Shown here one piece after another: positions 1-20,747 of a stretch of 20,747 nt of DNA. The stretch is taken from the IMG/VR virus record IMGVR_UViG_3300007609_000109, positions 1-20,747 of that record. One strand, written 5' to 3'. The notes beneath the pieces are model-generated. The model was not told where the DNA came from. It did no database searches and worked only from the letters and a program-made list of their open reading frames with translations. Numbering within the stretch: the first letter of the stretch is position 1; each line of letters begins with the position of its first letter. The DNA comes from a virus. The position numbers were made by a program, and so were the translations under genes.

Positions 1-366
1 TGCATTGATCCTGCTGATGGTAAAGTCAAAGTAGTAAATTTAAAGAAGAAGCTGTGGGAGCAAATCATTACTGCCGCAGAAGATTTAGGTGACCCAACAG
101 ACCCTGAAACAGGCTGGGATGTATGTTTCAAGCGCGTCAAGACTGGGCCTCTACCCTACAATGTAGAGTACCAACTACAAGTACTAAAGTGTAAAGCTCG
201 ACCTCTCGATGACGCTGAGCGCGCTGCCATTGCAGATCTTAAGTCTATGGACGAAGTAATGGCTCGTCCTACTCCTGATGCTCAGAAAGAGCTTCTTGAC
301 CGTGTTCGTGCTCCTTCACAAGAGCAAATGGACGAGAGCCTTGAGGAAGAGTTTAATATCGGATGA
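1..366 (+). CDS. Probable ssDNA-binding protein, gp32-like (3' part only)
   Basis: The reading frame is open at the left window edge and ends at the TGA at 364-366, so only the last 121 codons are visible. The visible part has a basic/aromatic stretch (LKKKLWEQI), a DPTDPETGWD turn and a strand-rich segment (FKRVKTGPLPYNVEYQLQVL), which recalls the core of T4 gp32-type single-strand DNA-binding proteins. It ends in a strongly acidic tail (MDESLEEEFNIG) with a hydrophobic tip, as SSB-type proteins use to recruit partners. Its place directly ahead of the gp47/gp46 pair, with a 4-base ATGA overlap, fits a coating protein for recombination and replication intermediates. The identification is by pattern and context. 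The N-terminal part, including any zinc site, lies outside the window, so another DNA-binding role is possible. Confidence 0.55.
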   Translation, partial: CIDPADGKVKVVNLKKKLWEQIITAAEDLGDPTDPETGWDVCFKRVKTGPLPYNVEYQLQVLKCKARPLDDAERAAIADLKSMDEVMARPTPDAQKELLDRVRAPSQEQMDESLEEEFNIG

Positions 367-1322
367 TATTATTCACAGCAGACTGGCATATTAAACTAGG
401 TCAAAAGAATGTGCTGCCTGCTTGGGCATTGAACAGGTATCATCTATTTTTTGAGCAAATTAAAGAAATAGAAAAAACCTGTTCGATGCACATAATAGGT
501 GGAGACTTATTTGACCGATTGCCTACTATGGAAGAGCTAGAACTGTACTTTACGTTTATTCGTAAGGTACAGATCCCTACCATAATCTACGACGGTAATC
601 ACGAAGCTACTAAGAAAGCAAAAACTTTTTTCAGCCAATTAAAGCAGGTTACTAGAGATATAAACCCTTTAGTAAATATCATAGACATATCTTACGTTGA
701 TAAAGACTTAGGCTTCGGCATACTACCTTACACAGAACTCCATAAAAAAGGTAGTATAGATCACTTTGATAAAAGAAAACCTCTGTTTACTCATGTACGG
801 GGAGAAATACCTCCGCATGTTAAACCTGAGATAGACCTAGACGACTTATCAGAGTTCCCAGTAGTTTTTGCAGGGGATTTACATTCCCACTCAAACACTC
901 AAAGAAATATAGTTTACCCTGGCAGTCCAATGACTACTTCTTTTCATAGAAGTAAAGTCTCAACGGGGTATCTACTTATTGATGAAAAATCTTGGAATTG
1001 GTTATGGGAGGAGTTTACTCTTCCACAGTTAATTCGTAAAACAGTAGCCTCTACAGAAGAAATGGTTGAAACTGAGTATGATCATACAATCTATGAAATA
1101 GAGGGCGATATTCAAGAATTAGCATCAATTAAAAACTCAGACTTACTCGACAAGAAGGTAGTCAAACGAAATTCTGAAGCAACTCTTATTATGGAAAAAG
1201 ATATGTCCATTGAAGAAGAGTTGTCAGAGTATCTAAACTACATACTTGGAATAAGTGAAGAAAAAATCTCTGGAATACTAGGCACATTTAATGATTACTC
1301 TCAAAAAGCTCAAATGGAATAA
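363..1322 (+). CDS. SbcD/Mre11-like recombination nuclease subunit (T4 gp47 type)
   Basis: This is a 319-residue calcineurin-like metallophosphoesterase. The metal-binding motifs are clear and in order: D7-x-H9 (ADWHIKLG), GGDLFD at 46-51, GNHE at 78-81, H144 (LFTHV) and GDLHSHS at 171-177. In the family, this subunit forms a heterotetramer with the Rad50/SbcC-like ATPase and resects double-strand DNA ends or trims hairpins. In T4, gp46/gp47 is needed for recombination-dependent replication and host DNA breakdown. The length is close to that of T4 gp47. The ATG at 363 overlaps the upstream stop (ATGA) and is preceded by GAGGAAGAG, a good ribosome site. The 3' end overlaps the start of the ATPase gene by 32 bases, which suggests coupled translation of the two subunits. 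Confidence 0.92.
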   Translation: MILFTADWHIKLGQKNVLPAWALNRYHLFFEQIKEIEKTCSMHIIGGDLFDRLPTMEELELYFTFIRKVQIPTIIYDGNHEATKKAKTFFSQLKQVTRDINPLVNIIDISYVDKDLGFGILPYTELHKKGSIDHFDKRKPLFTHVRGEIPPHVKPEIDLDDLSEFPVVFAGDLHSHSNTQRNIVYPGSPMTTSFHRSKVSTGYLLIDEKSWNWLWEEFTLPQLIRKTVASTEEMVETEYDHTIYEIEGDIQELASIKNSDLLDKKVVKRNSEATLIMEKDMSIEEELSEYLNYILGISEEKISGILGTFNDYSQKAQME

Positions 1323-3093
1323 CTGCTTCAGCTATGGAGCAGAGAATGAGATAAACTTAGATGACAGTACTCTTACTCAGATAATCGGAACAAACGGAAT
1401 GGGCAAATCGTCCATTCCGTTGATTATCGAAGAAGCTCTATACAATAAAAACTCGAAAGGAATCAAAAAAGCTGATATACCTAATCGTTATGTAAATAAC
1501 GGTTATGATATATACTTGTCTTTTCAAAAAGAGGATTCGTTATACGAGATCACTATTAATAGAAAAGTCAATATAAAAGTAAAACTAGAAGAAAATGGGG
1601 TAGATATCTCTAGCCACACGGCTACGAATACCTACAAAAGTATTCAAGAAATTCTAGGTATTGACTTTAAGACTTTCAGTCAATTAGTTTATCAAAACAC
1701 TAATAGTAGTTTACAGTTTCTAACAGCTACAGATACCAACCGCAAAAAGTTTTTAATTGACTTACTGCATTTGGAAGAATATGTTCAGTTGTTCGAAGTT
1801 TTTAAGGAGGCTGCTAAAAATACAACAGCCAACTTAACTAGTATAGAATCAAAAATAGCAACTATCGAAAAGTGGCTTTCCGACAATAAATTGAGCGATA
1901 CATCCATACTTCCACTGTTAGAAGTTGAAATTGACACGGAAGAAGATGAGAAAGAACTGCGTTCTCTTACAGTAGAAATTCAAAATATTTCGGAAAAAAA
2001 TAAGAAAATTTCAGCAAATAATAAATTTATAGAAATATTGGCCGGTATTGACATAGATGAAGCCAATAAAATTAAAGCCACTGAAATACTTTCTTATGAT
2101 GCCCTACAATCCGAGGCTGGTAGCCTCAAGGGAGCTGTAACAAGTTCTAAAGCAGCATTAACAAAGTTGGAATCTCTCGGACATAACTGTCCTACGTGTG
2201 AACAATCTATAGACGCTGATTTCAAGCAAGGACTAATTGACCTTGAAAAGGCAAGGGCTGCAGAAGCCTTAGAGAAGTTAAAAAATGAAATTAACCCAGA
2301 AATTGAAAGAATTAAAACTAACAATGCAGAATATGAGCGCAAAACAAGTATTGAGCAAGATTGGCAGAGGGTTTATAAATCTATTGACCGCAATCTTCCG
2401 AAGACTCAAGTGGATAGGGAAGAGCTTGATGGAAGGATTCTTGGAGTTCAGAGCCGTATATCAGATGCAAAAAACAAGCTGGCAGATATCTCAACAGAGA
2501 ATGAAAGACGAACAAAAAGAAACACCAGAATCCAAGTAATACAAGAGCAAACTCAAGAGTTTGTAGATCAGCTAAATGAAGCAGAAGCTATGTTAACTAC
2601 AGAGTCTACTCTAAACTCTAATTTAGAAATTCTAAAGAAAGCATTTAGCACAAACGGACTTCTTGCTTATAAGATAGAAAATCTTGTGAAAGAGTTAGAA
2701 GAGCTTGTAAACGCCTACTTAGGCGAGTTATCTGATGGTAGATTTACTTTAGAGTTTGTAGTGTCAAATGATAAACTAAATGTACAAGTAACAGATAATG
2801 GAAATATTATTGATATACTAGCTTTATCGAGCGGTGAGCTGGCAAGAGTTAATACTGCGACTCTTCTAGCTATTCGAAAGCTAATGAGTAGTATATCTAA
2901 GTCCAAACTTAACATACTATTCCTGGATGAAGTAATCAATGTACTAGACGATTCAGGCAGAGAAAAACTAGTAGAAGTATTGCTAGGAGAAGAAGAGCTA
3001 AATACTTATGTAGTAAGTCATGGCTGGACTCACCCTCTGCTAGAAAAGATAGAGATTGCTAAGAAAGGCAGTATAAGCGTACTAGAAAAATAA
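1291..3093 (+). CDS. SbcC/Rad50-like recombination ATPase (T4 gp46 type)
   Basis: This is a 600-residue SMC-type ABC ATPase. The Walker A is GTNGMGKS at 33-40. A long charged coiled-coil region follows and is broken near its centre by a zinc hook, CPTC at 300-303. The second coil returns to the signature motif (LSSGELARVN, about 511-520), Walker B with catalytic D546-E547 (ILFLDE), a D-loop (NVLDDSG) and an H-loop (VVSHG). This order is that of Rad50/SbcC, in which the head binds the nuclease and the hook joins two complexes. It is shorter than E. coli SbcC and near the size of T4 gp46. The ATG at 1291 lies inside the nuclease gene, and the first downstream methionine would lose the N-terminal strand. 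The resolvase-like gene follows one base after its stop. Confidence 0.93.
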   Translation: MITLKKLKWNNCFSYGAENEINLDDSTLTQIIGTNGMGKSSIPLIIEEALYNKNSKGIKKADIPNRYVNNGYDIYLSFQKEDSLYEITINRKVNIKVKLEENGVDISSHTATNTYKSIQEILGIDFKTFSQLVYQNTNSSLQFLTATDTNRKKFLIDLLHLEEYVQLFEVFKEAAKNTTANLTSIESKIATIEKWLSDNKLSDTSILPLLEVEIDTEEDEKELRSLTVEIQNISEKNKKISANNKFIEILAGIDIDEANKIKATEILSYDALQSEAGSLKGAVTSSKAALTKLESLGHNCPTCEQSIDADFKQGLIDLEKARAAEALEKLKNEINPEIERIKTNNAEYERKTSIEQDWQRVYKSIDRNLPKTQVDREELDGRILGVQSRISDAKNKLADISTENERRTKRNTRIQVIQEQTQEFVDQLNEAEAMLTTESTLNSNLEILKKAFSTNGLLAYKIENLVKELEELVNAYLGELSDGRFTLEFVVSNDKLNVQVTDNGNIIDILALSSGELARVNTATLLAIRKLMSSISKSKLNILFLDEVINVLDDSGREKLVEVLLGEEELNTYVVSHGWTHPLLEKIEIAKKGSISVLEK

Positions 3094-3541: not shown

Positions 3542-4375
3542 ATGGCATTTAATTTTTCAGACAAAATAACAGGGTCAGGCAGAAACGCTACTCTCATAGT
3601 TGATGCTCTAAACTTAGCTTTCAGATGGAAGCATCAAGGAAGAACGGATTTCTGCGATGACTATGTTAGAACAGTTGAGTCTCTGGCAAGGTCTTACGAT
3701 TGTAGTAATGTGATTATTACTGCGGATAAAGGCTCCTCGTCTTATCGTAAAGAGATTTCTCCTGAGTATAAGCAAAACCGAAAAGATAAGTACGCAGATC
3801 AAAGCGAAGAGGAAAAGCAAGCATTTCTAGACTTTTTTGAAGAGTACGAGAACTCTCTGGAAGCACTAGGAGACTTGTTTCCTGTTTTACGATATGATGG
3901 TGTTGAGGCAGACGACCTCGCAGCTCACTTAGTAAAAAATCGTAAGCGCTACGGGCTTGGAGATGTATGGCTTATTTCCAGTGACCGAGACTGGGATTTG
4001 CTTATTGATGAAAAAGTTGCTCGATTCTCCTACGTAACTAGAAAAGAAGTTACATTAGAGAATTGGCATGAACATTATGATGTAAGCAGAGAAGAATATA
4101 TATCTCTTAAGTGCCTTACTGGAGATAAGGGAGATAACGTTGCAGGTATTCCAGGCATTGGACCCAAGCGCGCAGTAGACTTAATTCGTGAGTACGGGGA
4201 TGCAATGGATATCTACAACTCTCTTCCTATAGACAGTAGATATAAACATATACAAGCATTGAATGATAGTGGAGAGCAATTACTAACAAACTATCAATTA
4301 ATGGACTTATTAACATATTGCGATGATGCAATAGGGTCTGATAACGTATCAGATATAGAGCGGAAATTTGATTAA
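3542..4375 (+). CDS. 5'-3' exonuclease / RNase H, FEN-like (T4 rnh or T5 exonuclease type)
   Basis: This is a 277-residue structure-specific nuclease of the FEN/5'-3' exonuclease family. The acidic metal-binding residues are in place: D21 (LIVDALN), D62 (ITADKG), E122 and D124-D125 (VEADDLA), D148 and D150 (SSDRDWD), and D195/D198 (GDKGDN). The basic ISPEYKQNRK stretch and the helix-hairpin-helix IPGIGPKRA at 203-211 bind DNA. Family members remove RNA primers and 5' flaps, and in T4 the RNase H acts with gp32 on the lagging strand. Here the probable ssDNA-binding gene is in the same operon. The ATG follows the upstream stop directly, and its own stop overlaps the nrdA start (TAATG). A probable promoter lies about 55 bases upstream. 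Confidence 0.92.
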   Translation: MAFNFSDKITGSGRNATLIVDALNLAFRWKHQGRTDFCDDYVRTVESLARSYDCSNVIITADKGSSSYRKEISPEYKQNRKDKYADQSEEEKQAFLDFFEEYENSLEALGDLFPVLRYDGVEADDLAAHLVKNRKRYGLGDVWLISSDRDWDLLIDEKVARFSYVTRKEVTLENWHEHYDVSREEYISLKCLTGDKGDNVAGIPGIGPKRAVDLIREYGDAMDIYNSLPIDSRYKHIQALNDSGEQLLTNYQLMDLLTYCDDAIGSDNVSDIERKFD

Positions 4376-6150
4376 TGAAGATTGATATAAATTATAGACG
4401 AGATAACTACTTATCTGAGTTTAGTATAAAAACTTTAGAAGATAGGTACATGGTAGACGGGGAGATCTCGCCACAAGATGCTTTTGCTCGCGCTGCTAAA
4501 ACTTTTGCAGATGATGAAGCACACGCACAAAGACTCTATGACTACGCTAGTAAGTTGTGGTTTATGTTTTCTACACCTATTTTAAGTAATGGAGGAACAA
4601 GTCGTGGATTACCTATTAGTTGCTTTCTTAACTACGTGGACGACAGCAGAACTGGTATTACATCTCACTACACTGAAAATGCTTTTCTTTCGTCAGTAGG
4701 CGGGGGCATTGGCGGAAGCTGGGACGGGGTCAGGAGTGTAGGCTCGAAAACGAGCAATGGCTCCGAAAGTACGGGAGTGATACCATTTCTAAAAGTAGTA
4801 GATGCAGAAATGCTAGCGTTCTCTCAGGGGGTTACTCGACGCGGAAGCTATGCTGCCTATCTCGATATTGGACACCCAGAGATTGAAGAATTCTTGGATG
4901 TTCGTAAGCCTACAGGCGGAGATATTAACCGTAAGTCTATCAATCTACATCACGGCGTGGTGATTAGTGATAAATTTATGGAAATTATCGAAAATGCTAC
5001 ACGAATTGAAGGATTTGATGATTCGTGGGATTTGGTTGATCCGCACAGCAAACGTGTTATTAAAACAGTGTCAGCAAAAGCACTTTGGGTAAAGCTTATC
5101 CAAAATCGTGTTGAAACGGGAGAGCCTTACATTATGTTTGGCGACACTGTTCAAGATGCGTTACCAGAGTTCCAAAAAGAACTAGGCTTAAAAGCGCGTC
5201 AATCTAATCTTTGCTCTGAAATTACACTTGCAACAGATGAAGAGCGTACTGCCGTATGTTGCTTATCAAGTGTAAATTTGGAAGAATATGACGAATGGAA
5301 AGATAACGCCCAATTTATTCCAGACTTAGTAAGAATGCTAGACAATGTGCTAGATCATTTTATCGAGAAAGCACCTGATGAACTAGAAAAAGCAAAGTTT
5401 AGTGCTTTTAGAGAAAGAAGTATTGGCCTAGGCGCAATGGGCTTTCATGCGTACTTGCAACGACAAAACATTCCTTTTGAAAGTGCTCTTGCAAAGAGTG
5501 CTAACATGAGAATGTTTAAGTATATTAAATCGGAGGCAGAAAATGCTACTCGACTTCTTGCGAAAGAGCGTGGAGACTGTCCGGACGGAATTGGTTATGG
5601 TATTCGCAATGCTCATTTATTGGCTATCGCTCCTAATGCTTCTAGTAGTATCATTTGTGGTAATACTAGTCCTAGCATTGAGCCCTACCGCGCTAATGCG
5701 TTTACGCAGAAAACTAAAACAGGATCGTCACTACTCAAAAACGAATACCTAGAGCATCATCTAGATGAGATAGGAATGAATGATGAGGAAGTTTGGAAGA
5801 GTATTCTTACAAATGGAGGAAGTGTACAACATTTGGAGTTTCTAGATGACTACACGAAAGACGTGTTTAAGACTGCTGTAGAGATAGACCAGCGATGGGT
5901 AATTGATATGGCAGCAGATAGGCAAAAGTATATTTGTCAGAGTCAGTCTCTCAATGTATTCTTTCCTGGAAACGTGTCGAAGCAAGAGCTTCATGCAGTA
6001 CACATGATGGCTTGGAAACAAAAAGTAAAGACTCTTTATTATTTGCGAAGTGAAGCAGTAAAGAGAGCTGAAAACGTCTCAGTTGAGGCACTAAGGCAGT
6101 ATATATTCGATTCAATCGATGAGAACGCTTGTTTAGCGTGTGAGGGGTAG
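4375..6150 (+). CDS. nrdA: Ribonucleoside-diphosphate reductase class Ia, alpha subunit (NrdA), short form
   Basis: This 591-residue subunit reduces ribonucleoside diphosphates to deoxy forms with the partner beta subunit. Active-site parts are complete: C83 (LPISCFLN), N278-L-C280-S-E282 with the thiyl cysteine in the middle, C295 (AVCCLSS) as the second redox cysteine, and the radical-relay pair Y555-Y556 (TLYYLRS). The C-terminal tail has C586-x-x-C589 for re-reduction by thioredoxin or glutaredoxin. The family phosphate-loop segment APNASSS is at 419-425. It is about 150-170 residues shorter than E. coli or T4 NrdA. The shortfall is at the N-terminus, since the first redox cysteine is at 83 rather than about 225, so the ATP-cone is missing. 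No intein or intron is seen. The start overlaps the exonuclease stop. Confidence 0.96.
   Translation: MKIDINYRRDNYLSEFSIKTLEDRYMVDGEISPQDAFARAAKTFADDEAHAQRLYDYASKLWFMFSTPILSNGGTSRGLPISCFLNYVDDSRTGITSHYTENAFLSSVGGGIGGSWDGVRSVGSKTSNGSESTGVIPFLKVVDAEMLAFSQGVTRRGSYAAYLDIGHPEIEEFLDVRKPTGGDINRKSINLHHGVVISDKFMEIIENATRIEGFDDSWDLVDPHSKRVIKTVSAKALWVKLIQNRVETGEPYIMFGDTVQDALPEFQKELGLKARQSNLCSEITLATDEERTAVCCLSSVNLEEYDEWKDNAQFIPDLVRMLDNVLDHFIEKAPDELEKAKFSAFRERSIGLGAMGFHAYLQRQNIPFESALAKSANMRMFKYIKSEAENATRLLAKERGDCPDGIGYGIRNAHLLAIAPNASSSIICGNTSPSIEPYRANAFTQKTKTGSSLLKNEYLEHHLDEIGMNDEEVWKSILTNGGSVQHLEFLDDYTKDVFKTAVEIDQRWVIDMAADRQKYICQSQSLNVFFPGNVSKQELHAVHMMAWKQKVKTLYYLRSEAVKRAENVSVEALRQYIFDSIDENACLACEG
6142..6147 (+). 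promoter_or_regulatory. Ribosome binding site that sets the nrdB start
   Basis: GAGGGG lies 4 bases ahead of the ATG at 6152. This favours that ATG over the in-frame GTG at 6140, which would overlap the site and add only four residues (to give VRGR-M). Confidence 0.6.
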
Positions 6151-7479: not shown

Positions 7480-8706
7480 CTATTTAAAACGACCTGAACC
7501 ATGTATCCAAATTACCATTACCCATCGCTCTCCGTATGTAATAGGAGACACTCTATGAAGCATATAACTAGGAAACATTGTTATAGATCCTTGCTCGTCA
7601 ATACACTTTATTAGTGTACCATTATTTAATTCTAGTTCGCCCCCTGAGTATCCGTCTCTATTAGTTAAAGGAATAGAGACAGAAATTTTACGGCTAGATG
7701 CAGTTTCTGGGCCTATATCTACGTGCCAATCATAATGGCCATTTTCTTCGGCTTTGTACTGTAAGAGTTCGATTCCATGAATCATACCCAATAAATCAAA
7801 CTTAAAATAGTTAGCATTTGCTTCTGCAACCGCTTTACCTATTCTATCAAATATCCAATGATTGGAAGTGTCCTCTAGTGCTATTTCAAACTTATTTACG
7901 GAACGAACAGAGGTGTCTAATTTACCATTATTTTCGAATCCTACAGTAGCTTTACTAGAATATAAAGTATCTGATAATGATATTATTTTTTTACATTCTT
8001 CCTCAGTAAAAGTCATAGCGGGGTTAAAGCCGGTATGAAAAGTTATTGGCCCTGGTGAGATAGAGTCACATTTAGATATCATATATCCGTTAGGTTGAGT
8101 AAATATTTTATTGCCCGAGCTAGCGGCTTCTTTTTTACTTCCTAACTGTTTTCTACCGTCAAACTTATGATCTTTATAAGGTCCGTTCTTATCTACATAG
8201 TGAAAAAATACTTGAACTTGCCAAACTCCTTTAAAGGGAGGCCTCCAATGAGGAAGTTCATTTCCTCGGTACATCACTAGATCGCCCGTATTTATAAGCA
8301 GAGGTAATCCTACTAAATCTTCCTCATCTTTTGCAAAGTATATAGGCCAAACACTAGTATTAGGCTCAAATCCCAGAGTCATTGTTCCTGAGATTTCACA
8401 CGATGGGCGGTCTGAATGCCTTTCTAGCACTTCTCCCGGCCTGTAAATTCTTGCATAAGTATAAGCGGGGTCTAGGCTAACTCCCAACTGCTTCGATAAA
8501 GTTTCTGTCAATTCTTCTAATAGTTTATCAAATACAGGGTCGCCGTATACTGAGTCAGATAAAGGACATTGAGGATCTTTTTCTAGATTTCCGGCCCTGT
8601 GCAGTCCAAACATTCTGTCTGTTAAGTTTTTGCAAGTTTGTTCATCTATGACATTTGACAAGTATACATATCGATTTTTTTCAAAATAATCCGCAATTGC
8701 TGTCAA
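7480..8706 (-). CDS. Double-domain 2OG-Fe(II) oxygenase (prolyl-4-hydroxylase-like)
   Basis: This 408-residue protein holds two 2-oxoglutarate/iron dioxygenase domains in tandem. Domain 1 (about 1-172) has H97-x-D99 (ERHSDRP) and the distal H153 (LPHWRPP). Domain 2 (about 220-405) has H328-x-D330 (YDWHVDIG), H384 (MLHRVSP) and R394 (GERWVM), the usual 2OG anchor ten residues after the distal histidine. Both domains keep 56 residues between the first and distal histidines. In domain 1 the +10 position is Q163, though R155 and K159 are near. Such enzymes hydroxylate proteins, small molecules or nucleic acid. Being in the fibre operon hints at virion modification, which is inference. The start is TTG at 8706, one base after the upstream stop, with a good AAGGAAG site. 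No ATG occurs before residue 32. Confidence 0.88.
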   Translation of the reverse strand: MTAIADYFEKNRYVYLSNVIDEQTCKNLTDRMFGLHRAGNLEKDPQCPLSDSVYGDPVFDKLLEELTETLSKQLGVSLDPAYTYARIYRPGEVLERHSDRPSCEISGTMTLGFEPNTSVWPIYFAKDEEDLVGLPLLINTGDLVMYRGNELPHWRPPFKGVWQVQVFFHYVDKNGPYKDHKFDGRKQLGSKKEAASSGNKIFTQPNGYMISKCDSISPGPITFHTGFNPAMTFTEEECKKIISLSDTLYSSKATVGFENNGKLDTSVRSVNKFEIALEDTSNHWIFDRIGKAVAEANANYFKFDLLGMIHGIELLQYKAEENGHYDWHVDIGPETASSRKISVSIPLTNRDGYSGGELELNNGTLIKCIDEQGSITMFPSYMLHRVSPITYGERWVMVIWIHGSGRFK

Positions 8707-8707
8707 T

Positions 8708-9622
8708 TTAGTCTTCCTTCTTTTCTAATTGTGCAACTTTCTTATCATACCCCAAGCCTGTGGTATGCTCGTGCTTAAAGCCCATGCGATCCATCTTAGC
8801 TTCATCAACTTTACAGTTGTCAATTAGGTTAGAGACAACATGATCTACGAAGTCATGCAAGCCATTCGTATCCCAACTCTCGGAAACAGCTTCTTCCGCT
8901 ACGTATTCACGAATCATACGCTGAATCTTTCCAGGGTTCACACCAATCTGTTCCATATATTCTTGCTCGCCTTTTGTAATATTTCCGCTTTGGCGAACAT
9001 CTCGAATACACTGAACTAGACTTCTCTTTAAGTGTGATTTAGATTCTTCTTTTTCTACGTCTTCTTCTGAAAAATCTGAAACTTTGCTTTTTAACTGCTC
9101 ATATAATTCATTAAGAGCTAGTACATCTTTCATTGCGCCTTCAATATAGAGCGAACCTTCTGCCATGCCTTCTCGAAGTTGGGCAAGTTTTACTTTTCCT
9201 TCCACTTCATCCCAGTATTCTAAGTTTGGATCACTAAGTTTTTCTTCAAGTTTACGAATTTTTACTTCATTCTTTACTTGTCGCCATTTAGCTTCATTCA
9301 GTGCATTCTTTTTGCTTGTTACTTCTGCAGCAATTTGTCGCATATTCTTAAGAGGACTGTGGTAAGATAAATTAATATGCTTCCACGTCCACTCAGTATG
9401 ACTACGATTCCATATATTTTGCAGCTCTTGAGTATTTTGAAGTGCGGTATCTACTAACTGAGAATTTTCAGCTAGACTTCTGCCTCCAAAGCTTTCTGTC
9501 TTTGCAAGGGTGCCTCGACCAAATACTGCTGCTACTGGTACCTTATATTCACTACCGTCCGTAAGTGTAATATCTTTGCGAATTTCTTCGAATATTGCTA
9601 ATTCTTTTGTATCGTCTGACAT
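8708..9622 (-). CDS. Coiled-coil protein of unknown function
   Basis: I do not recognise this 304-residue protein. The first 60 residues look globular (TDGSEYKVPVAAVFGRG, then a Gly/Ser-rich turn). Residues about 100-190 are long charged helices with heptad-like spacing (QVKNEVKIRKLEEKLSD, KVKLAQLREGMAEG), so coiled coil is likely. The last 90 residues form a second helical region (YMEQIGVNPGKIQRMIREYV), ending in a lysine/glutamate-rich tail. There is no signal peptide or membrane segment. Unlike its neighbours, it is preceded by its own perfect sigma70-type promoter, which would also drive the dioxygenase and the 105-residue gene, so these three may be made earlier or apart from the fibres. 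A scaffold, tail-measuring or host-directed role cannot be told apart here. Confidence 0.75.
   Translation of the reverse strand: MSDDTKELAIFEEIRKDITLTDGSEYKVPVAAVFGRGTLAKTESFGGRSLAENSQLVDTALQNTQELQNIWNRSHTEWTWKHINLSYHSPLKNMRQIAAEVTSKKNALNEAKWRQVKNEVKIRKLEEKLSDPNLEYWDEVEGKVKLAQLREGMAEGSLYIEGAMKDVLALNELYEQLKSKVSDFSEEDVEKEESKSHLKRSLVQCIRDVRQSGNITKGEQEYMEQIGVNPGKIQRMIREYVAEEAVSESWDTNGLHDFVDHVVSNLIDNCKVDEAKMDRMGFKHEHTTGLGYDKKVAQLEKKED
8713..8719 (-). promoter_or_regulatory. Ribosome binding site supporting a TTG start
   Basis: On the minus strand AAGGAAG ends 6 bases ahead of the TTG at 8706-8704. The good site and spacing, and the lack of an early ATG, make TTG the likely start of the dioxygenase. 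The site lies inside the last codons of the preceding gene, so translation may be coupled. Confidence 0.6.
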
Positions 9623-9684: not shown

Positions 9685-9707
9685 AAAAAAGTCAAGCAAT
9701 ATTTTTT
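9667..9707 (-). promoter_or_regulatory. Strong sigma70-type promoter for the coiled-coil/dioxygenase genes
   Basis: On the minus strand the order is AAAAAATATTGC (9707-9696), the -35 box TTGACT (9695-9690), a 17-base spacer, and the -10 box TATAAT (9672-9667). The boxes are one base from consensus, and the A-rich run upstream could act as an UP element. Transcription should start near 9660, leaving a leader of about 40 bases before the ATG at 9622. The same upstream element occurs at the promoter at 18517-18556. Confidence 0.85.
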
Positions 9708-9708
9708 C

Positions 9709-10767
9709 CTAGTTTTGCTGCCCTACTGGCTGTTTTAATGGAAGTAAAAGATCCCCTACGTCCGTGGCATTTGCATCAGAAGAAAAAGAAAACTTTTCTA
9801 TAACATTTTGATGAGTGGGACTTAAAAATCCTCCATGAGAATAGCCACTATCTGTAGAAGAAGTTCCTGCATTATTTTTAACGTTGTTCGTTAAATCTCC
9901 TACATCAGTAGCATTTGCATCTGTTGCAAAAGGAAACTTTTGAATAACATTTGTGAGCGCTGGAAGGCTTCCACCTGCGAAATATCCGTTTTCACTAGAA
10001 CTTTGACCGGCACCAACAGCAATGCCACTCAATAAATCTCCTACATCAGCAGCATTTGCATCTGTTGCAAAAGGAAACTTTTGAATAACATTTGATTTCC
10101 CTGGGGCATCCCCTCCACTATGATATCCATTTTCAGTAGAATTTTGACCTACTCCAGTCTCAACTAAATTGATCAAATTTCCTACGTCAGTAGCATTTGC
10201 ATCTGCTGCAAAAGAAAACTTTTGAATAATATTGGTTCTCGGGGGAGAGAATCCTCCTGATGTGTACCCATATTCAAGAGAAGATTGCCCCGCTAAGTTT
10301 GTCATAGTAGTTGTTAAATCACCTACATCAGTAGCGTTTTCATCTGCTGCAAAAGGGAACTTTTCTATAACATTAAGGTATGCCGGCGTAGCTCCCCCTG
10401 CTACATAGCCATTAGTAGGAGAAGTTTGTCCCGAAGCTTGATGTTTTGCTGCTGTAAGATCTCCTACATCAGTAGCATTTGCATCTGTTGTATAAGAGTA
10501 CTTTTGAATAACATTAGAAAGAACATAAGATGTTGGAGCACCTTCTTGGCCTGACGAAGAATACCCGAAGCTGCTACCTTGAAATGCATCTGCAACAACA
10601 GCAGCAGCAGGCTCAAAGTAACTTAAAGAACTCCATGCTGTGGAACCGTCTCCTACTTTAAACTTGCCCGTGTCAGTTTCGTAGGCAAATTCTCCTATTG
10701 CCAGCGTCGGATCTGCAGCTGTTAGGTCTGCTGCCAGTCCTCTCTTTAATTGTATTGTATTTGCCAT
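9709..10767 (-). CDS. Tail fibre / receptor-binding protein with six propeller-like repeats, paralog C
   Basis: This 352-residue protein begins with a fibre N-terminal module like that of Bordetella phage Mtd (IQLKRGLAADLTAADPTLAI, then ETDTGKFKVGDGSTAW, 1-50). A short Ala-rich linker follows, then six repeats of about 47 residues on the pattern GYxxGG-x(5)-N(V/I)IQKF(P/S)FA-x-DANATDVGDL. The di-glycine then aromatic layout recalls kelch-type beta-propeller blades, and six integral repeats suggest a closed six-bladed ring. The first repeat is degenerate (SSSG in place of SGG). The C-terminus ends in mid-linker (GQQN). It is the last of three tandem paralogs 8-9 bases apart. Host-surface binding is inferred from the N-terminal module and operon. 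A repeat-built trimeric fibre is an alternative to a propeller. Confidence 0.8.
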   Translation of the reverse strand: MANTIQLKRGLAADLTAADPTLAIGEFAYETDTGKFKVGDGSTAWSSLSYFEPAAAVVADAFQGSSFGYSSSGQEGAPTSYVLSNVIQKYSYTTDANATDVGDLTAAKHQASGQTSPTNGYVAGGATPAYLNVIEKFPFAADENATDVGDLTTTMTNLAGQSSLEYGYTSGGFSPPRTNIIQKFSFAADANATDVGNLINLVETGVGQNSTENGYHSGGDAPGKSNVIQKFPFATDANAADVGDLLSGIAVGAGQSSSENGYFAGGSLPALTNVIQKFPFATDANATDVGDLTNNVKNNAGTSSTDSGYSHGGFLSPTHQNVIEKFSFSSDANATDVGDLLLPLKQPVGQQN

Positions 10768-10776
10768 AGTTTTTTC

Positions 10777-11853
10777 CTAGTTTTGTTGGCTTGTAGAATT
10801 TCTAACGGCGATTACAAGATTTCCTACATCAGTAGAGTTTCCGTCTGTTTCAAAAGAAAACTTTTGAATAACATTAGTATAAACATTAGGAGGTCCTTGT
10901 AAACCCCCGGCCACATATCCGCTAGAAGTTGAAGAAGTCGCTGACATCTGTTGATTAGTTGCAAGTAAATCTCCTACATCAGTAGAGTTTCCATCTGTTT
11001 CAAAAGAAAACTTTTGAATAACATTAATTCGAGCAGTAGCATCCGAGTTGTATCCACCAGATACATATCCATAAGTAGAAGAATTACTTCCTGCCTGGGA
11101 ATTAACTAGTGCAGATAAAAGATCCCCTACATCAGTAGCATTTGCATCTGTTGCAAAAGAAAACTTTTGAATAACATTAACGGGGTTATTTGGAAAACTA
11201 TATCCCCCAGATACATATCCACTTACAGGACTAGAATGACCTGCACTAGCCCTATAACCAGATAAAAGATCCCCTACATCAGTAGCATTTGCATCTGTTG
11301 CAAAAGGAAACTTTTCTATAACATTATAACCATTGGCAGGAGTGGGCACCGCGGTGCCGCCTGCAGAATAACCGTTTTCGGAAGAAGAATGCCCAGTACC
11401 GGTATCCTTAGCTGCCAGAAGATCTGCTATGTCAGTAGAGTTTGTATCTGTTGCAAAAGGAAACTTTTCTATAGTATTTTTGACGCCAGGGGTTGTTCCA
11501 CCAGAGAGATATCCAGACTCAGTGGAAGATTGGCCTGTGCTTAACTGTATAGCAAGTATAGTATCTCCTACATCAGTAGCATTTGCATCTGAAGTAAAAG
11601 AATACTTTTGTATTGTATTACGTATAGTAGGTGACGTGCCTCCAGAAGCGTATCCGTAGTTTTCCCCTTGAAAACTCCAAGCTTCAGCGGCAGCGACTTC
11701 AAAATAACCTAGGGCACTCCAAGCGGTTGAGCCGTCTCCAACCTTAAACTTGCCTGTATCAGTTTCAACGCCTACTTGGCCAGCTACCAGCGTCGGATCT
11801 GCTGCAGTCCATTCAGCTGCTGTACCTCTTTTATGTTGTATTGTATTTGGCAT
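10777..11853 (-). CDS. Tail fibre / receptor-binding protein with six propeller-like repeats, paralog B
   Basis: This 358-residue protein is the middle of three tandem paralogs. The N-terminal module (MPNTIQHKRGTAAEWTAADP, then VETDTGKFKVGDGSTAW) is nearly the same as in paralog A, and the six repeats begin near residue 69. Repeats 3 to 6 have longer and more varied loops between the di-glycine and NVIQKF (for example AVPTPANGY and YNSDATARI). These loops are the likely contact surface if this binds receptors. Two repeats carry FETDGNSTDVG in place of FATDANATDVG, a sub-type that marks the last two repeats of this paralog. The ribosome site (CTAGGGGAAACT) overlaps the stop of paralog A, so translation is probably coupled. 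No signal peptide is present. Confidence 0.8.
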   Translation of the reverse strand: MPNTIQHKRGTAAEWTAADPTLVAGQVGVETDTGKFKVGDGSTAWSALGYFEVAAAEAWSFQGENYGYASGGTSPTIRNTIQKYSFTSDANATDVGDTILAIQLSTGQSSTESGYLSGGTTPGVKNTIEKFPFATDTNSTDIADLLAAKDTGTGHSSSENGYSAGGTAVPTPANGYNVIEKFPFATDANATDVGDLLSGYRASAGHSSPVSGYVSGGYSFPNNPVNVIQKFSFATDANATDVGDLLSALVNSQAGSNSSTYGYVSGGYNSDATARINVIQKFSFETDGNSTDVGDLLATNQQMSATSSTSSGYVAGGLQGPPNVYTNVIQKFSFETDGNSTDVGNLVIAVRNSTSQQN

Positions 11854-11861
11854 AGTTTCCC

Positions 11862-12938
11862 CTAGTTTTGTGAGCCTGCTTGGCCATAGCCAGTCGCTAA
11901 AAGATCTGCAATATCCGTTGCATTTGCATCTGTTGCAAAAGGGAACTTTTGTATTGTATTAAGAAGGGACGCATTGACACCTCCTGCACCATACCCATCA
12001 GTAGTAGAACTAGAGGGGGCTCCACTATACTGAACGGCTTGAACTAAATCTCCAACATCCGTTGCATTTGCATCTGTTGCAAAAGGAAATTTATCTATAG
12101 TATTAGTCGCGCCAGGAGGACTACTAAAAGGTACGTCCATACCTCCGGCAGTATAACCATATTCTGTAGAATTAGGTGCAAAACTGTAAGATCTGGCCAC
12201 TGTTAAATCACCTACATCAGTAGCATTTTCATCTGCTGCAAAAGGGAACTTTTGTATAATATTAGTATGAATATTAGAAGGGCTGGGAGCTATAGCAGGG
12301 TTAAATCCGCCTACTACATATGCGTACTCTGGAGCACTTATTCCACCGGATGCGTACCTCGCAGCAAGTAAATCTGCTATATCCGTACCATTCTCATCTG
12401 CTGCAAAAGAAAACTTTTCTATAACATTAAATACTGTAGGAGAAGCTCCTCCAGAGTGGTATCCATTTTCAGAAGAAGAAGAAGCTGCTGTCTCGTATTT
12501 GTCTACTGTAAGATCACCTACATCGGTAGCGTTTTCGTCTGCTGCAAAAGGAAACTTTTCTATAACATTTGTTTGAAGAGGAAGTCTTCCCCCCGCAGTA
12601 TAGCCATGAGACGAAGACGTATTTCCTGAGATACTGAATTTGAGTTGTGTAAGGTCGCCTACATCAGTAGCATTTTCATCTGCTGTAAAGGAGTACTTTT
12701 GTATTGTATTCACCTTAGGAGTACCTCCAGAAGCATAACCAAAAGCACTTCCTTGAAAGCTATAAGCAGCAGCAGCAGCAGCTTCAAAATAACCTAAAGC
12801 ACTCCAAGCTGTGGAACCGTCTCCCAGTTTTAATTTGCCAGTATCAGTTTCATAGCCGAACTCTCCCGCAGCCAGTGTAGGGTCTGCGGAAGTCCATTCT
12901 GCTGCTGTACCTCTTTTATGCTGTATGGTGTTCGCCAT
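11862..12938 (-). CDS. Tail fibre / receptor-binding protein with six propeller-like repeats, paralog A
   Basis: This 358-residue protein is the first of three tandem paralogs in transcription order. The N-terminal fibre module (MANTIQHKRGTAAEWTSADP, then YETDTGKLKLGDGSTAW) is followed by an Ala-rich linker and six repeats beginning FGYASGG. Early repeats use FAADENATDVG while the last two use FATDANATDVG, the form common in paralog C, so repeats look mixed between genes. Repeat 4 and repeat 5 have long Pro/Ser-rich loops (FNPAIAPSPSNIHTN, MDVPFSSPPGATN). It follows the 82-residue protein gene by 9 bases, with a GGA ribosome site. The likely role is adhesion, as part of the virion. Confidence 0.8.
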   Translation of the reverse strand: MANTIQHKRGTAAEWTSADPTLAAGEFGYETDTGKLKLGDGSTAWSALGYFEAAAAAAYSFQGSAFGYASGGTPKVNTIQKYSFTADENATDVGDLTQLKFSISGNTSSSHGYTAGGRLPLQTNVIEKFPFAADENATDVGDLTVDKYETAASSSSENGYHSGGASPTVFNVIEKFSFAADENGTDIADLLAARYASGGISAPEYAYVVGGFNPAIAPSPSNIHTNIIQKFPFAADENATDVGDLTVARSYSFAPNSTEYGYTAGGMDVPFSSPPGATNTIDKFPFATDANATDVGDLVQAVQYSGAPSSSTTDGYGAGGVNASLLNTIQKFPFATDANATDIADLLATGYGQAGSQN

Positions 12939-12947
12939 GATTTTTTC

Positions 12948-13196
12948 CTATACTTCTTCGTCTGCAGGATTCGTCCAATCGGGGTTGAGAGTAAATGCTC
13001 CATTTGCATATGTATACTTATTACCAGACCAATCGTCTGGAATTGTTACACCTTCGACCATTGTTGCGTTCTCGCTGTTGAGATCTGCGACAATAAAGTT
13101 AGGAGTTTCAATGTTTGTAGCAGTAAGCGATACCACTACATCATCCTCAAATACATACTTTGATAAATTAGTTGCTGTTTCAATAATTGTTTTCAT
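12948..13196 (-). CDS. Small fibre-associated protein, unknown
   Basis: This 82-residue acidic protein begins MKTIIETATNLSKYVFED, then VVVSLTATNIETPNFIVADL, and ends PDWTNPADEEV. The first half predicts strands and the second half has aromatic turn residues (DDWSGNKYTYANGAF). Similar small proteins sit beside fibre genes in marine phages, to my recollection, but I cannot name a function. Its ATG overlaps the stop of the 654-residue fibre (TAATG), so it is translated with that fibre. Its place between that fibre and the three propeller paralogs fits a small fibre component, tip cap or assembly factor. This is inferred only from position. Confidence 0.7.
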   Translation of the reverse strand: MKTIIETATNLSKYVFEDDVVVSLTATNIETPNFIVADLNSENATMVEGVTIPDDWSGNKYTYANGAFTLNPDWTNPADEEV

Positions 13197-15160
13197 TATA
13201 CTACTGTCCCTCCATCAATTACGCTATTGCCGTCAAGTCCGTTTCCTCCGTCCTTTCCGATTAGTAATTTAGTTGTACTAATAGCAACTCCGGCAAACAC
13301 TCTAGTTGTATCTGCAGTGACCGCTAAAGTACCGTCTTCTTGTATGAAGTATGCCTGGCCTGAAGTAAGCCCTGACTGAGCATCGTCAATCGACCCCGCA
13401 GTTTGAATTGTAGCTGTAGCAGCATCTGCATAAGCCCCATCTGCAATACCCGCATAGTTTTCTGCTGTAAGGTTTGTTGTTGTAACATCTCCTGCTTGAA
13501 TTACAACAGCCTTACCGTCGTCGGTATCTGCATCATCAGCATAAAAAACTACTATTTTGTTTGAATTTGAATCAAAAACAGCCGACATACCTTCATAGAT
13601 AGCGCCAGATTCAATTTCAAATTCAGTACCATAAGTAATACTATCTCCTGAAACTGTACCGACAATAGCCTTTCCACTAGTATCATAGTAAGTAGTAAGT
13701 ATTTTATTTGTATTCGAATCAAAAGCTACGGCATTGAACGAGCTTGTGCCGGAATTATGAGTCACTGCGGAACCAAAAGATATACTCGTATCATCAACAG
13801 TACCTATTTTTGTAGTACCATTGAACGAACTACCGCCTTCTCTATATACTACAACTACTTTGTTTGAAATTGAATCAAAAGTTACCTTGCTCATACTTGT
13901 GGTTCCAGTACTAAATACTACTGGCGTACCAAAAGTAATACTTGTACCATCTACACTTCCTACTACCGCAGTTCCCTTGTCGGTATTTCCTGCATCTTTG
14001 TATACAAAGACTACTCTATTTGAGTTTGAGTCAAAAGTGCCGTTAGCCCACTCAATTGTACTTGTCTCAAATACTACTGGCGTACCAAAAGTAGCACTAC
14101 TTCCTGAAACTGTACCTACGACCGCTGTGCCATAGTTAGAGTTACTACCATCTCTATAAGCGATTACTATTTTATTTGAGTTTGAATCAAAAACTACAGA
14201 TGAATAAGTCATCGCACCGCCAGAGTCCGCAGTAATAGCACTTCCAAAAGATATGCTATTTCCTGAAACCGTACCTATAAGCACATCGAGGCTGGTACTA
14301 GCATTTCTATAAGATAGTACTACTTTATTTTCATTCGAATCAAATCCTATTCCAAAGAAATTTGTATTTACTGAAGCAGCTACTACTGGTGTACCAAAAG
14401 TAATATCTCCATTTGCTACAGTTCCTACTGCCACCGTTACATACCCAGAGTTAGCTACATCTGAATAAGCTACCACTACTTTATTTGAGTTAGAGTCAAA
14501 AGTACTTTTTACAACTTTTGCCTCACCCGTTGAAAAAGTTACTGGATTGGACTTTGTTTCACTCAAAGTAGTTGTTTCTTCAACAACACTGACAGTACCG
14601 TCACTATTTATAGCTACAGGGTCTCCATCAGAAATTGCTCCAGAAGCTGTTGCTTCAAATGAGCCTCCGCCACCAGATGCAGCATCAATAAATGTGTATG
14701 TTCCGTCACCATCTGCCGAAAGAACTTGCCCTGCCGTGCCATCAGTAATGCTGAGGTCAGTGAGCACAGAAGGTATAGTAGGAGTACCTGTAAGATCACT
14801 ATAAGCACCACTAGTTGCTACAGTTGCTAGATCAGCACTATTTGCTTTTGTGGCAAGCGAAGTTGTTACCGTATTAGAGAAATTTGCATCATCACCTAAA
14901 GCTGCGGCCAGTTCGTTAAGAGTATCTAACGTGCCAGGAGCAGAAGCAACCAAATCATCTATAGCTGTAGTAATGTCTGCTGCGGTTGCATAAGATGTAG
15001 CATCTAAAGCATAGGAAAGACTACTCCATGCTGTGGAACCGTCTCCTATTTTTAATTTAAGAGTATCAGTTTCAAAGCCTAACTCACCTACTGCGAGAAC
15101 GGGATTTGCGGAGGTCCAATTTGCCGCTGTATCCCTTCTTATTTGTATTCTATCCGCCAT
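13196..15160 (-). CDS. Tail fibre with seven-repeat propeller-like domain
   Basis: This 654-residue protein starts with the shared fibre module (MADRIQIRRDTAANWTSANP, then ETDTLKLKIGDGSTAW). A common phage fibre linker follows (APGTLDTLNELAAAL, ATKANSADL, SDLTGTPTIP). At about 205-560 lie seven repeats of about 50 residues, each with FDSNSNK(V/I)V(V)xY, then a GTxxGxxITFGTPV strand pair, as in a seven-bladed propeller. This block sits between two halves of a fibre module seen in other phages: SGAISDGDPVAINSDGTVSV before and ADGAYADAATATIQTAGSID then AQSGLTSGQAYFIQEDGTLA after. The C-terminus ends DGNSVIDGGTVV. It overlaps the upstream 75-residue gene by 11 bases and the downstream gene by TAATG. 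Its role as a virion adhesin is inferred. Confidence 0.8.
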   Translation of the reverse strand: MADRIQIRRDTAANWTSANPVLAVGELGFETDTLKLKIGDGSTAWSSLSYALDATSYATAADITTAIDDLVASAPGTLDTLNELAAALGDDANFSNTVTTSLATKANSADLATVATSGAYSDLTGTPTIPSVLTDLSITDGTAGQVLSADGDGTYTFIDAASGGGGSFEATASGAISDGDPVAINSDGTVSVVEETTTLSETKSNPVTFSTGEAKVVKSTFDSNSNKVVVAYSDVANSGYVTVAVGTVANGDITFGTPVVAASVNTNFFGIGFDSNENKVVLSYRNASTSLDVLIGTVSGNSISFGSAITADSGGAMTYSSVVFDSNSNKIVIAYRDGSNSNYGTAVVGTVSGSSATFGTPVVFETSTIEWANGTFDSNSNRVVFVYKDAGNTDKGTAVVGSVDGTSITFGTPVVFSTGTTSMSKVTFDSISNKVVVVYREGGSSFNGTTKIGTVDDTSISFGSAVTHNSGTSSFNAVAFDSNTNKILTTYYDTSGKAIVGTVSGDSITYGTEFEIESGAIYEGMSAVFDSNSNKIVVFYADDADTDDGKAVVIQAGDVTTTNLTAENYAGIADGAYADAATATIQTAGSIDDAQSGLTSGQAYFIQEDGTLAVTADTTRVFAGVAISTTKLLIGKDGGNGLDGNSVIDGGTVV

Positions 15161-18576: not shown

Positions 18577-20747
18577 TTAATTAGATTCTAGATCTATTAT
18601 ACGTGATTCTAAGGCTTCTATTTTTACTTGCTGTTCTTGTATAGCTTTTACTAGTACCGCACATAAGGCATCTAATTTTAAAGACTGAATTTGATTTGCG
18701 GCATCTTTCTCTCCCTCAACTGCGCTAGGAATAACTTGAGCAAGTTCATGGGCTATAAAACCTTCTCTATTTACTCCGTCAGCTGTCCAGCTAAAATTAG
18801 AGTTATTAGCATAAGTATATGTAACAGGCCTAATTTGATTGATTCTAGAAATAGCTTCCTGAGTCTGAGTTTGAATATTATCTTTTATTCTATAATCTGA
18901 AGAAACCGAAATATTACCAACATTTGTAGTATCCACCCATAATTGAGCTGCAGACCCCGTCCACCAAAAATTGAAGCTATTACCTGTACTAGTACCATTT
19001 GTTCCTTGTCGCCCTTTTATTCCTTTAGAAGCAACAGTATCGTTCACAGTTAAAGTTCCATTAAAAAACCCATTTCCTGCAGTAGTTACATTAAATTTCT
19101 CAGAACTATTAGACCAACCTCTAGTGATATAACTAGAGTCGCAAAAAGTTATAAAAGCATCACTTGCAGTACCCCAAATAGACCCCGTATCTTTAGCAAA
19201 ACCTCCGGCGGTTCCGTATCTTGCTACTCCTGCAAAACCGAAAGAGCCAGTATTAGTTCCTGTATACTCCGAAAATATTGTTGCACACGCTCCAGTATGA
19301 GTAGATCCAAATCTAGCAGTTGTATCGTACCCTGTACCTTGGATAGTAACTCCAGAGCTAGCTAATTGGAACGTATGGCTAGACTCTGAAAAAGTAGTGT
19401 TAGAGTTAAGTGCTGATAAATTGACTGTACCTGTAGTTATGTTACCGCCATCAATAGTAGTAATTGTAGAGCCGTCTAACTGAAAATCTCCTGAGCTAAA
19501 CGTCACTAAGCCTTCAAAGTTATGCCCAAGTTCAGGAGAATCGAACTCTAGTTCTCCGTTGGAACTAGTTCCTATTGTATCGGTCGAGCTAGATTGAACA
19601 ACTCTGTAACGTGAATAATAATATTTTCCATTTGCACCTGCTCCCATTTCTGGGGGACTTTGTTGCCACCCAGAACGCATTCCAACGATATTACCGGTTG
19701 ACCAGTAGTAATAAACTGACCCATCGTCTGGACCTGAGGGAGCACTTGTAGTTGCAGTATTATAGTAAACATAGCCTTCCGCAGTTCTTACCCCATCAGC
19801 ACCATCTGTGCCATCTGTGCCATTAGTACCATTAATACCATCTGCACCATCTGCACCATCTGCACCATCTGCGCCTTCAAAAGAGGGAGTAATACTTATG
19901 TTAAACTTAGGATTGTATTGAGTACCATCACTAGAAGTTACATATATGGATAACTCATATTGTGTAGCTTGAGTAAGATTTCCTGCAAAAGCCCCTAAAG
20001 TAGCTCCCACACTTCCAGAGCCTGTAATTGTTGGCTCTGTTAAAGTATCCCCCGAAACTTTAGTAATATTTAAATTATATCTACCGTTAGTTCCCGGATA
20101 CGATGTTGTTTGAGTATTACTATTTAGTACTAGCTCTGTTGTTCCATCGAATATATTTAAGTTTCCACCACTTCCAGTCCAAGTTTCTATGCCAGTATTT
20201 GTTACAGGAACTGTATGTGATTGATTGCTGTAAAAAGTTGTAATTGCATCTACACCATCGCCTCCAGCTACTCCGTCTGCTCCGTCTGCTCCGTCTGCTC
20301 CGTCTGCTCCGTCGGTACCAGGCTGTATTGCTCCCATAGTAATATGGTCTCTAGCAAGTATACTGGAGCTAGTGCTGCCTTCTCTAATTTCAACTTCAAT
20401 TTCGTCGGGCATACTAGAAATATTAGACTGAGGCGTATATGTGTAAGTATTGCTTGTTGTATGCTGAACAGAGCTATTGTTCAAAAAGAACTTATAATAT
20501 ACCGTTCCGCTGGTATTATTTGCAGATGCAGTGATAGTTGTATTAGAGGGGCTAGGAGAGGATCCTGCTGCAGAATATGTAAATATATTAGTTCCTGCAG
20601 TTAAATCTACAGATCTTGCGTCTGTTCCTGCAGATCCATCTGCACCATCGGCTCCCGCAACTCCATCTACGCCAGCGCTTGATTTACTAAAAGTTTGCTT
20701 TTGAGTTCCTGTTACAAGATTTTCTATGTTCAAGGTATAAGTAATAA
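18577..20747 (-). CDS. Collagen-like tail protein with C-terminal peptidase S74 chaperone (5' end outside window)
   Basis: The frame is open to the right edge. The nearest start-like codon is a TTG at 20733-20731 without a ribosome site, so I treat the gene as truncated at its 5' end, with at least 718 residues visible. Counted from that TTG, three Gly-x-y collagen-like stretches (about 21-39, 138-163 and 287-314) separate strand-rich domains. Beta-structured fibre sequence follows. The last about 107 residues are an intramolecular chaperone of the S74 type: S612-D-Y-R-I-K617 (the Ser/Lys dyad), then GFIAHELAQVIPSAVEG and a final coiled coil (IQEQQVKIEALESRI). The family trimerises, folds the fibre and cuts itself off before the serine. 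It is probably a central tail tip or main fibre protein. Confidence 0.88.
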   Translation of the reverse strand, partial: ITYTLNIENLVTGTQKQTFSKSSAGVDGVAGADGADGSAGTDARSVDLTAGTNIFTYSAAGSSPSPSNTTITASANNTSGTVYYKFFLNNSSVQHTTSNTYTYTPQSNISSMPDEIEVEIREGSTSSSILARDHITMGAIQPGTDGADGADGADGADGVAGGDGVDAITTFYSNQSHTVPVTNTGIETWTGSGGNLNIFDGTTELVLNSNTQTTSYPGTNGRYNLNITKVSGDTLTEPTITGSGSVGATLGAFAGNLTQATQYELSIYVTSSDGTQYNPKFNISITPSFEGADGADGADGADGINGTNGTDGTDGADGVRTAEGYVYYNTATTSAPSGPDDGSVYYYWSTGNIVGMRSGWQQSPPEMGAGANGKYYYSRYRVVQSSSTDTIGTSSNGELEFDSPELGHNFEGLVTFSSGDFQLDGSTITTIDGGNITTGTVNLSALNSNTTFSESSHTFQLASSGVTIQGTGYDTTARFGSTHTGACATIFSEYTGTNTGSFGFAGVARYGTAGGFAKDTGSIWGTASDAFITFCDSSYITRGWSNSSEKFNVTTAGNGFFNGTLTVNDTVASKGIKGRQGTNGTSTGNSFNFWWTGSAAQLWVDTTNVGNISVSSDYRIKDNIQTQTQEAISRINQIRPVTYTYANNSNFSWTADGVNREGFIAHELAQVIPSAVEGEKDAANQIQSLKLDALCAVLVKAIQEQQVKIEALESRIIDLESN
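19792..19874 (-). repeat. 9-base tandem repeats encoding collagen-like Gly-Ala-Asp
   Basis: Units near 'accatctgc' (plus strand) repeat about nine times with substitutions. The last four are nearly exact. They encode the third Gly-x-y stretch of the S74 protein (GADGADGADGADG, then GINGTNGTDGTDG). Copy number could change by slippage without breaking the frame. Confidence 0.75.
20271..20315 (-). repeat. 9-base tandem repeats encoding collagen-like Gly-Ala-Asp
   Basis: Four exact copies of 'ctccgtctg' (plus strand) and a fifth with one change run head to tail. They encode the second Gly-x-y stretch (GTDGADGADGADGADG) of the S74 protein. Such near-exact repeats suggest recent expansion and likely length variation between isolates. 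Confidence 0.8.

Follow-up and report, generated by a model that had tools for sequence, protein, structure and literature searches.

The marine viral fragment IMGVR_UViG_3300007609_000109 (20.7 kb; the whole analysed stretch is hereafter called the window) carries three adjacent genes, A, B, and C, for paralogous repeat proteins, and the locus raises the question of what such neighbouring proteins do for the phage and how they came to differ. Comparison of the window with its relatives revealed that whole propellers are replaced behind a conserved docking domain between near-identical phages, even with a change of propeller class. We consider it quite probable that the products are tail-associated receptor-binding proteins, which would be interchangeable and diversified by whole-domain replacement and, more weakly, by the exchange of blades.

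A tandem trio of docking-domain proteins with six repeats

An earlier note, made from the letters of the window, had described three adjacent paralogs sharing a docking-type N-terminus, each with six repeats whose sub-types are mixed within and between genes, and this description proved right down to the exact coordinates (Table 1). A, B, and C are complete open reading frames (ORFs) separated by gaps of 8–9 nt, with pairwise protein identities of 56–60% over the full length, and their N-termini all matched the Pfam family Mtd_N (PF18454) above the curated cut-off (E 1e-12 to 1e-17). Repeat alignment gave exactly six repeats per gene, each of 47–55 aa with a final half-repeat of 32 aa, and thus 18 in total, the same number as the copies of the DNA repeat family D1. 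The sub-type AADEN was found in repeats A2–A4 and C2, ATDAN in A5, A6, B3, B4, C4, and C5, and ETDGN in B5 and B6.

The structure was modelled for copy A; B and C would share its fold, to judge from their identity to A (56–60%) and their six repeats. With copy A and 55 relatives as input, AlphaFold2 predicted the closed ring that had been anticipated, consisting of six four-stranded blades, with a predicted local distance difference test score (pLDDT) of 90.7 overall and about 96 over residues 64–358. In Foldseek and VIA-align comparisons, this model resembled the kelch domain of Keap1 and the designed SAKe6 (Z about 40, root-mean-square deviation about 1.6 Å over about 275 residues), from which it differs in sequence, with an identity of 16–22% and no kelch Trp in the window repeats.

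Nearly every blade of A, B, and C had the double glycine in strand B, and columns 40–41 were Gly in 94–100% of 254 distinct family units. None of the Pfam models Kelch_1 to Kelch_6 reached its curated cut-off in A, B, or C, the best score being that of Kelch_6 in copy B only (21.5 vs 25.3 bits), and the 56 relatives yielded one Kelch_1 match (E 0.001) and one Kelch_6 match. In the consensus GYTSGG..P..NTIDKFPFASDANATDVGDLT, a Phe stands near the Tyr position and no Trp follows the double glycine. Assignment of the repeats to Pfam was ruled out, with only sub-threshold kelch matches and scattered spurious ones obtained; being kelch-type in shape without Pfam kelch membership, the repeats therefore form a sequence family of their own.

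This six-blade family is common in aquatic viral contigs. Six cores were counted in 189 of the 224 distinct complete genes of the fetched loci and seven in one, and the tail after the last core was near-constant (11–13 residues) in these genes. Together with the mutual identity of A, B, and C, this count speaks against a chance pattern. The tandem arrays ranged from one to nine genes, in line with the differing copy number expected in the earlier note. A collection of cellular genomes contained six contigs of metagenome-assembled genomes with family matches, which are likely phage.

Replacement of whole propellers between close relatives

Replacement is seen in the relative L002 (IMGVR_UViG_3300045135_001080), which has the same gene order as the window and flanking genes of 95.6–98.0% identity, with the exception of a 105-aa gene (85%). 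Docking-domain DNA identity between the two was 95.5% in slot A, 84.0% in slot B, and 91.7% in slot C. Behind these docking domains, slot A of L002 holds another kelch propeller with a background-level identity of 63% to that of window A; slot B holds Mtd_N followed by an FG-GAP repeat propeller (PF14312, E 3e-72), a different fold with a distal identity of 41%; and slot C has kept its propeller at 90% DNA identity. In slot A, identity to L002 drops within the Ala-rich linker that follows codon 52 (about 12785) and returns at the end of A, while in slot B it drops near 11740 and returns at 10779, the start of C.

The same pattern was observed in a survey of the fetched loci that covered 315 kelch genes, with duplicates counted, and in which genes with orthologous N-termini from different viruses were paired. 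In seven lineage groups (window/L002, L017/L067, L018/L038, L013/L021/L022, L009/L034, L049/L102, and L059/L064/L097), about 14 slot pairs displayed N-terminal identities mostly of 0.80–0.93 together with propeller identities of 0.58–0.69, although the N-terminal match was short or weaker in some of them (L009/L034, and L018/L038 with 75 nt). The reference identities were 0.583 ± 0.062 for random family members and 0.649 ± 0.066 for within-contig paralogues; the propellers of these pairs stand at the random-member level, and their differences were therefore attributed to replacement, not to gradual change. A second class of three slot pairs keeps the propeller at 0.90–0.96.

Alternatively, the tandem copies might be redundant duplicates drifting unselected, with fast divergence accounting for the propeller differences, and the loops of C, in which non-synonymous change is close to synonymous change (0.16 vs 0.15 in the DA loop), would be compatible with such relaxed constraint. 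We regard this account as highly improbable, however, in view of the intact frames, the retention of six blades in the 189 of 224 relatives, and the sharp boundary between docking DNA that is mostly 80–95% identical and propellers at background. Furthermore, slot B switched its fold class altogether, and the other slots of the same genome pairs stay at 90–96%.

As for the route of replacement, each propeller is bracketed by near-repeated DNA, namely, the Mtd_N start before it and the stop, ribosome-binding site, and next Mtd_N start after it, which would allow recombination to replace a whole propeller, even by one of a different class, while the docking part is kept. The junction order is shared by A, B, and C: final codons, a TAG overlapping an AGGAAA-type ribosome-binding site, and ATG with the Mtd_N start. 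The 205-nt direct repeats of family D4, which span these junctions, are candidate recombination homology. Homologous recombination within them would swap the propellers, and the phage's own SbcC/SbcD-like nucleases, the genes of which lie in the window, would perhaps aid the exchange. A broader scenario, which we put forward tentatively, is that a widespread group of aquatic tailed phages possesses a repertoire of up to nine tandem adhesins whose propellers (six-bladed kelch-like, FG-GAP, and seven-bladed) are interchangeable. These adhesins would vie for common docking sites, virions from a single clone would bear a mixture of them, and the array would act as a reservoir whose propellers and single blades recombine to track change of the host surface.

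Loop variation, possible blade exchange, and the probable role of the propellers

Over the 254 distinct 47-aa repeats, the mean column entropy was 2.6 bits in the DA loop, 2.9 bits in the BC loop, and 2.4 bits in the short AB loop, whereas the strands and the CD loop were nearly fixed (0.4–0.9 bits). The BC and DA loops share one face because the blade is antiparallel and four-stranded; in Keap1, the ligand is bound by the loops of this face. In copy C compared with its L002 orthologue, non-synonymous change amounted to 0.16 in the DA loop and 0.25 in the BC loop vs 0.04 in the strands and CD loop and 0.008 in Mtd_N, and the excess of the loops over the core was significant (p 5e-9). The expectation that loops vary faster than cores was thus borne out both across the family and between orthologues. 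In the proposed mechanism, the N-terminal Mtd_N would plug into the virion, and the variable BC and DA loops would form the receptor-recognition face.

Kelch-type propellers include enzymes. A propeller is also contained in phage endosialidases (PMC4901313), and the window proteins might accordingly be glycan-trimming enzymes (galactose-oxidase, epimerase or depolymerase-like) and not plain adhesins. However, His, Cys, Glu, and Trp are all absent from the invariant or nearly invariant columns of 56 aligned relatives, the face that is most exposed is hypervariable, and in the propeller part no Pfam model of an enzyme attained its cut-off. With no conserved catalytic-type residues in the family, the enzyme reading was set aside as a working explanation and is regarded as very unlikely.

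A further alternative is that the proteins are decoration or whisker-like virion proteins, binding generic surfaces or other phage parts without determining host range. The neighbouring genes in relatives are indeed neck genes (head-tail adaptor and head closure), and the jumbo phage vB_PcaM_CBB has a kelch protein in its virion for which the portion of the source available gives no receptor role (PMC5259590). On the other hand, receptor-binding proteins typically show just such a distal exchange behind a conserved docking part, in marine metaviromes the C-termini of tail fibres under-recruit (PMC3909814), and the Mtd_N relatives of known role are tropism determinants or tail hyaluronidases, so that a decoration role appears improbable.

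The earlier note had also taken the mixed sub-types as a sign of repeat shuffling, and this suggestion received modest support. Position-wise orthology of blades between copies was absent, save for a suggestion for blade 1, and the silent-site similarity of blades from different copies was 0.549 at the same position vs 0.547 at different positions. Within genes, silent-site similarity was higher than between genes of the same contig in 37 of 46 contigs (p about 1e-7), and adjacent blades were slightly more similar than distant ones (p 0.003). The blades within one propeller would, on this basis, be partly homogenised or exchanged. L026 has exactly one blade fewer than L014 and L015 (five instead of six), with surroundings 98–99% identical; this five-blade form may represent a natural blade deletion or a collapse in short-read assembly. 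The one-blade difference lies between the otherwise near-identical genes at 2321–3502 of L014 and 1863–2897 of L026. As a separate observation, synonymous divergence between C and its L002 orthologue (10464–11525 of L002) was lower in the propeller core than in Mtd_N (0.125 vs 0.324, p 0.01), which is perhaps a trace of homogenisation among blades.

Several points weigh against the assignment as exchangeable receptor-binding proteins. The Foldseek/VIA-align matches, made with a predicted model, speak for shape and not for function. The docking part of the copy A model was of lower confidence (pLDDT 58–82), as might be expected if this part folds solely as a trimer, and a role of Mtd_N as an attachment or trimerisation module would follow from the family name and from known structures. 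The silent-site signal suggestive of blade exchange was statistically clear with a small effect. Finally, a search of the fetched loci for donors of the swapped propellers found no match of at least 88% over 250 nt behind a different N-terminus. What was observed is the replacement of distal domains behind a conserved docking part; recombination between copies, proposed in the earlier note, would be one possible source of the new propellers.

Genomic setting and comparison with known systems

The minus strand is transcribed in the order D, an 82-aa ORF, A, B, and C, and gene D encodes a fourth Mtd_N protein (E 3e-18), which was missed in the earlier note; PF18454 scores in the four proteins were 48–66 bits vs a cut-off of 26.3. 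Gene D contains 51-aa repeats and probably carries a seven-bladed propeller, the model of which (pLDDT about 75 in the propeller part) resembled YncE, WD40, and PLL lectins with Z of 26–29; it is less certain because the model was built from three sequences only. Between gene D and L115, the N-terminal 165 codons are 76% identical and the rest 44%, and the L002 counterpart is a 1344-aa protein with internal segments repeated. Of 364 kelch ORFs, duplicates counted, only 18 had Mtd_N, and the N-termini vary among lineages; the propeller therefore travels with several docking types.

Table 1. Features of the window and their coordinates (strand given where assigned).
Feature	Coordinates	Strand	Description
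Gene D	13196..15160	(-)	654 aa; Mtd_N (15005-15160) and probable propeller (residues about 200-558, 13487-14563)
82-aa ORF	12948-13196	(-)
Copy A	11862..12938	(-)	358 aa; Mtd_N docking domain (codons 1-52, 12783-12938), Ala-rich linker, predicted six-bladed kelch-like propeller (residues 64-358, 11865-12749)
Copy B	10777..11853	(-)	358 aa; Mtd_N (11698-11853) and six kelch-like repeats (about 10780-11664)
Copy C	9709..10767	(-)	352 aa; Mtd_N (10612-10767) and six kelch-like repeats (about 9712-10575)
205-nt direct repeat (family D4), copy 1	12767..12971	(-)	gene junction, ribosome-binding site, A Mtd_N coding start
205-nt direct repeat (family D4), copy 2	11682..11886	(-)	A end, ribosome-binding site, B Mtd_N coding start
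205-nt direct repeat (family D4), copy 3	10596..10800	(-)	B end, ribosome-binding site, C Mtd_N coding start
Conserved cassette junction (family D9)	10767..10785, 9699-9717, 11852-11870	(-)	last codons, TAG stop overlapping ribosome-binding site
Fibre protein gene	18577-20733		collagen-like stretches, weak Big_7 match, C-terminal S74 chaperone; mechanical ORF start TTG
304-aa protein gene	8708-9622		weak phrog_1409 match
2-oxoglutarate (2OG)-Fe(II) oxygenase gene	7480-8706		adjoins the array
NrdA gene	4375-6150
SbcC/SbcD-like nuclease genes	363-3093

In relatives with longer context, the arrays lie beside genes for the head-tail adaptor Ad2, the head closure protein Hc2, a tail-sheath stabiliser, the terminase large subunit, and the tail sheath, and they are flanked on their opposite side by tail-fibre and baseplate genes. 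This synteny speaks indirectly for a place of the proteins in the virion; in T4, the short tail fibre and whisker genes occupy the equivalent region. The phage of the window probably has a T4-like virion. Its array belongs to a run of fibre genes and is preceded by fibre proteins, of which one has collagen repeats and an S74 chaperone. NrdA of the window is closest, among cultured phages, to that of pelagiphages (about 65%), while the array relatives have T4-like neck and tail genes. Relatives of the 2OG-Fe(II) oxygenase accompany kelch arrays in many loci, often together with a sulfotransferase-like gene (start MKxLHFCGGLPRSGSTVL), and the two products might modify fibre proteins or host glycans. 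The 304-aa protein serves as a conserved edge marker of kelch arrays, and 38 loci were found with it.

Among known systems, Mtd of Bordetella phage BPP-1 likewise joins an N-terminal Mtd_N to a variable host-recognition domain. Its C-terminus has a C-type lectin fold that a retroelement diversifies, whereas that of copy A is predicted to be a propeller and is exchanged whole. Diversification by a diversity-generating retroelement, prompted by the Mtd_N name, was not favoured: no reverse transcriptase was recognised among the ORFs identified in this 20.7-kb fragment, and the change is mainly whole-domain replacement, though C also shows point changes in its loops. In the Synechococcus phage S-SKS1 (Llyrvirus), SWZG_00001 has six repeats and 14 places in the genome match, but the identity is about 27–30% and the proteins are annotated as hypothetical. 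Two viruses aside (S-SKS1 and the single-cell virus AG-345-L05), cultured phages matched copy A essentially in its docking domain only.

The receptor-binding protein Gp45 of Staphylococcus phage phi11 likewise has one beta-propeller per monomer, but it differs in having five blades, a helical stem, a C-terminal tower, and a solved trimer (PMC4901313); PRD1 P2 and PhiKZ gp131C are further phage propeller cases (PMC4901313). Phage CBB encodes several kelch-type six-bladed proteins close together (CBB_550, 552, and 554, one of them in the virion), although its domains were found by kelch models, and neither Mtd_N nor slot-wise replacement is reported in the portion of that source available (PMC5259590). 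Marine metaviromic islands share tail fibres with a conserved N-terminus and an under-recruiting variable distal region, as well as Fe(II) oxygenase genes, but these are T7-type fibres and C1q proteins, and the word kelch is absent from the text (PMC3909814). The earlier note was thus fair in placing tandem kelch-like propeller adhesins outside the textbook types of phage fibre, with the reservation that the propellers of CBB (PMC5259590) and phi11 (PMC4901313) had been described.

Phage receptor-binding proteins with propellers (PMC4901313), a jumbo phage with clustered kelch proteins (PMC5259590), and marine phages whose fibres vary distally (PMC3909814) are already known. The literature searched yielded no paper on propeller arrays of phages and no account of the tandem arrays of the six-blade family, of its abundance, or of the exchange of entire propellers slot by slot, changes of class among them. 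The findings bear on how marine phages keep pace with host surface variation: in each replaced slot, the difference between near-identical phages begins almost exactly where the docking domain gives way to the propeller. Engineered propeller scaffolds have a natural counterpart in the constant ring with its hypervariable loop face. Over its propeller the family reaches the cut-off of no curated Pfam domain, and its members in the only cultured relative found carry the annotation hypothetical. A name for the family would turn many anonymous genes into testable candidates for host-range determinants.

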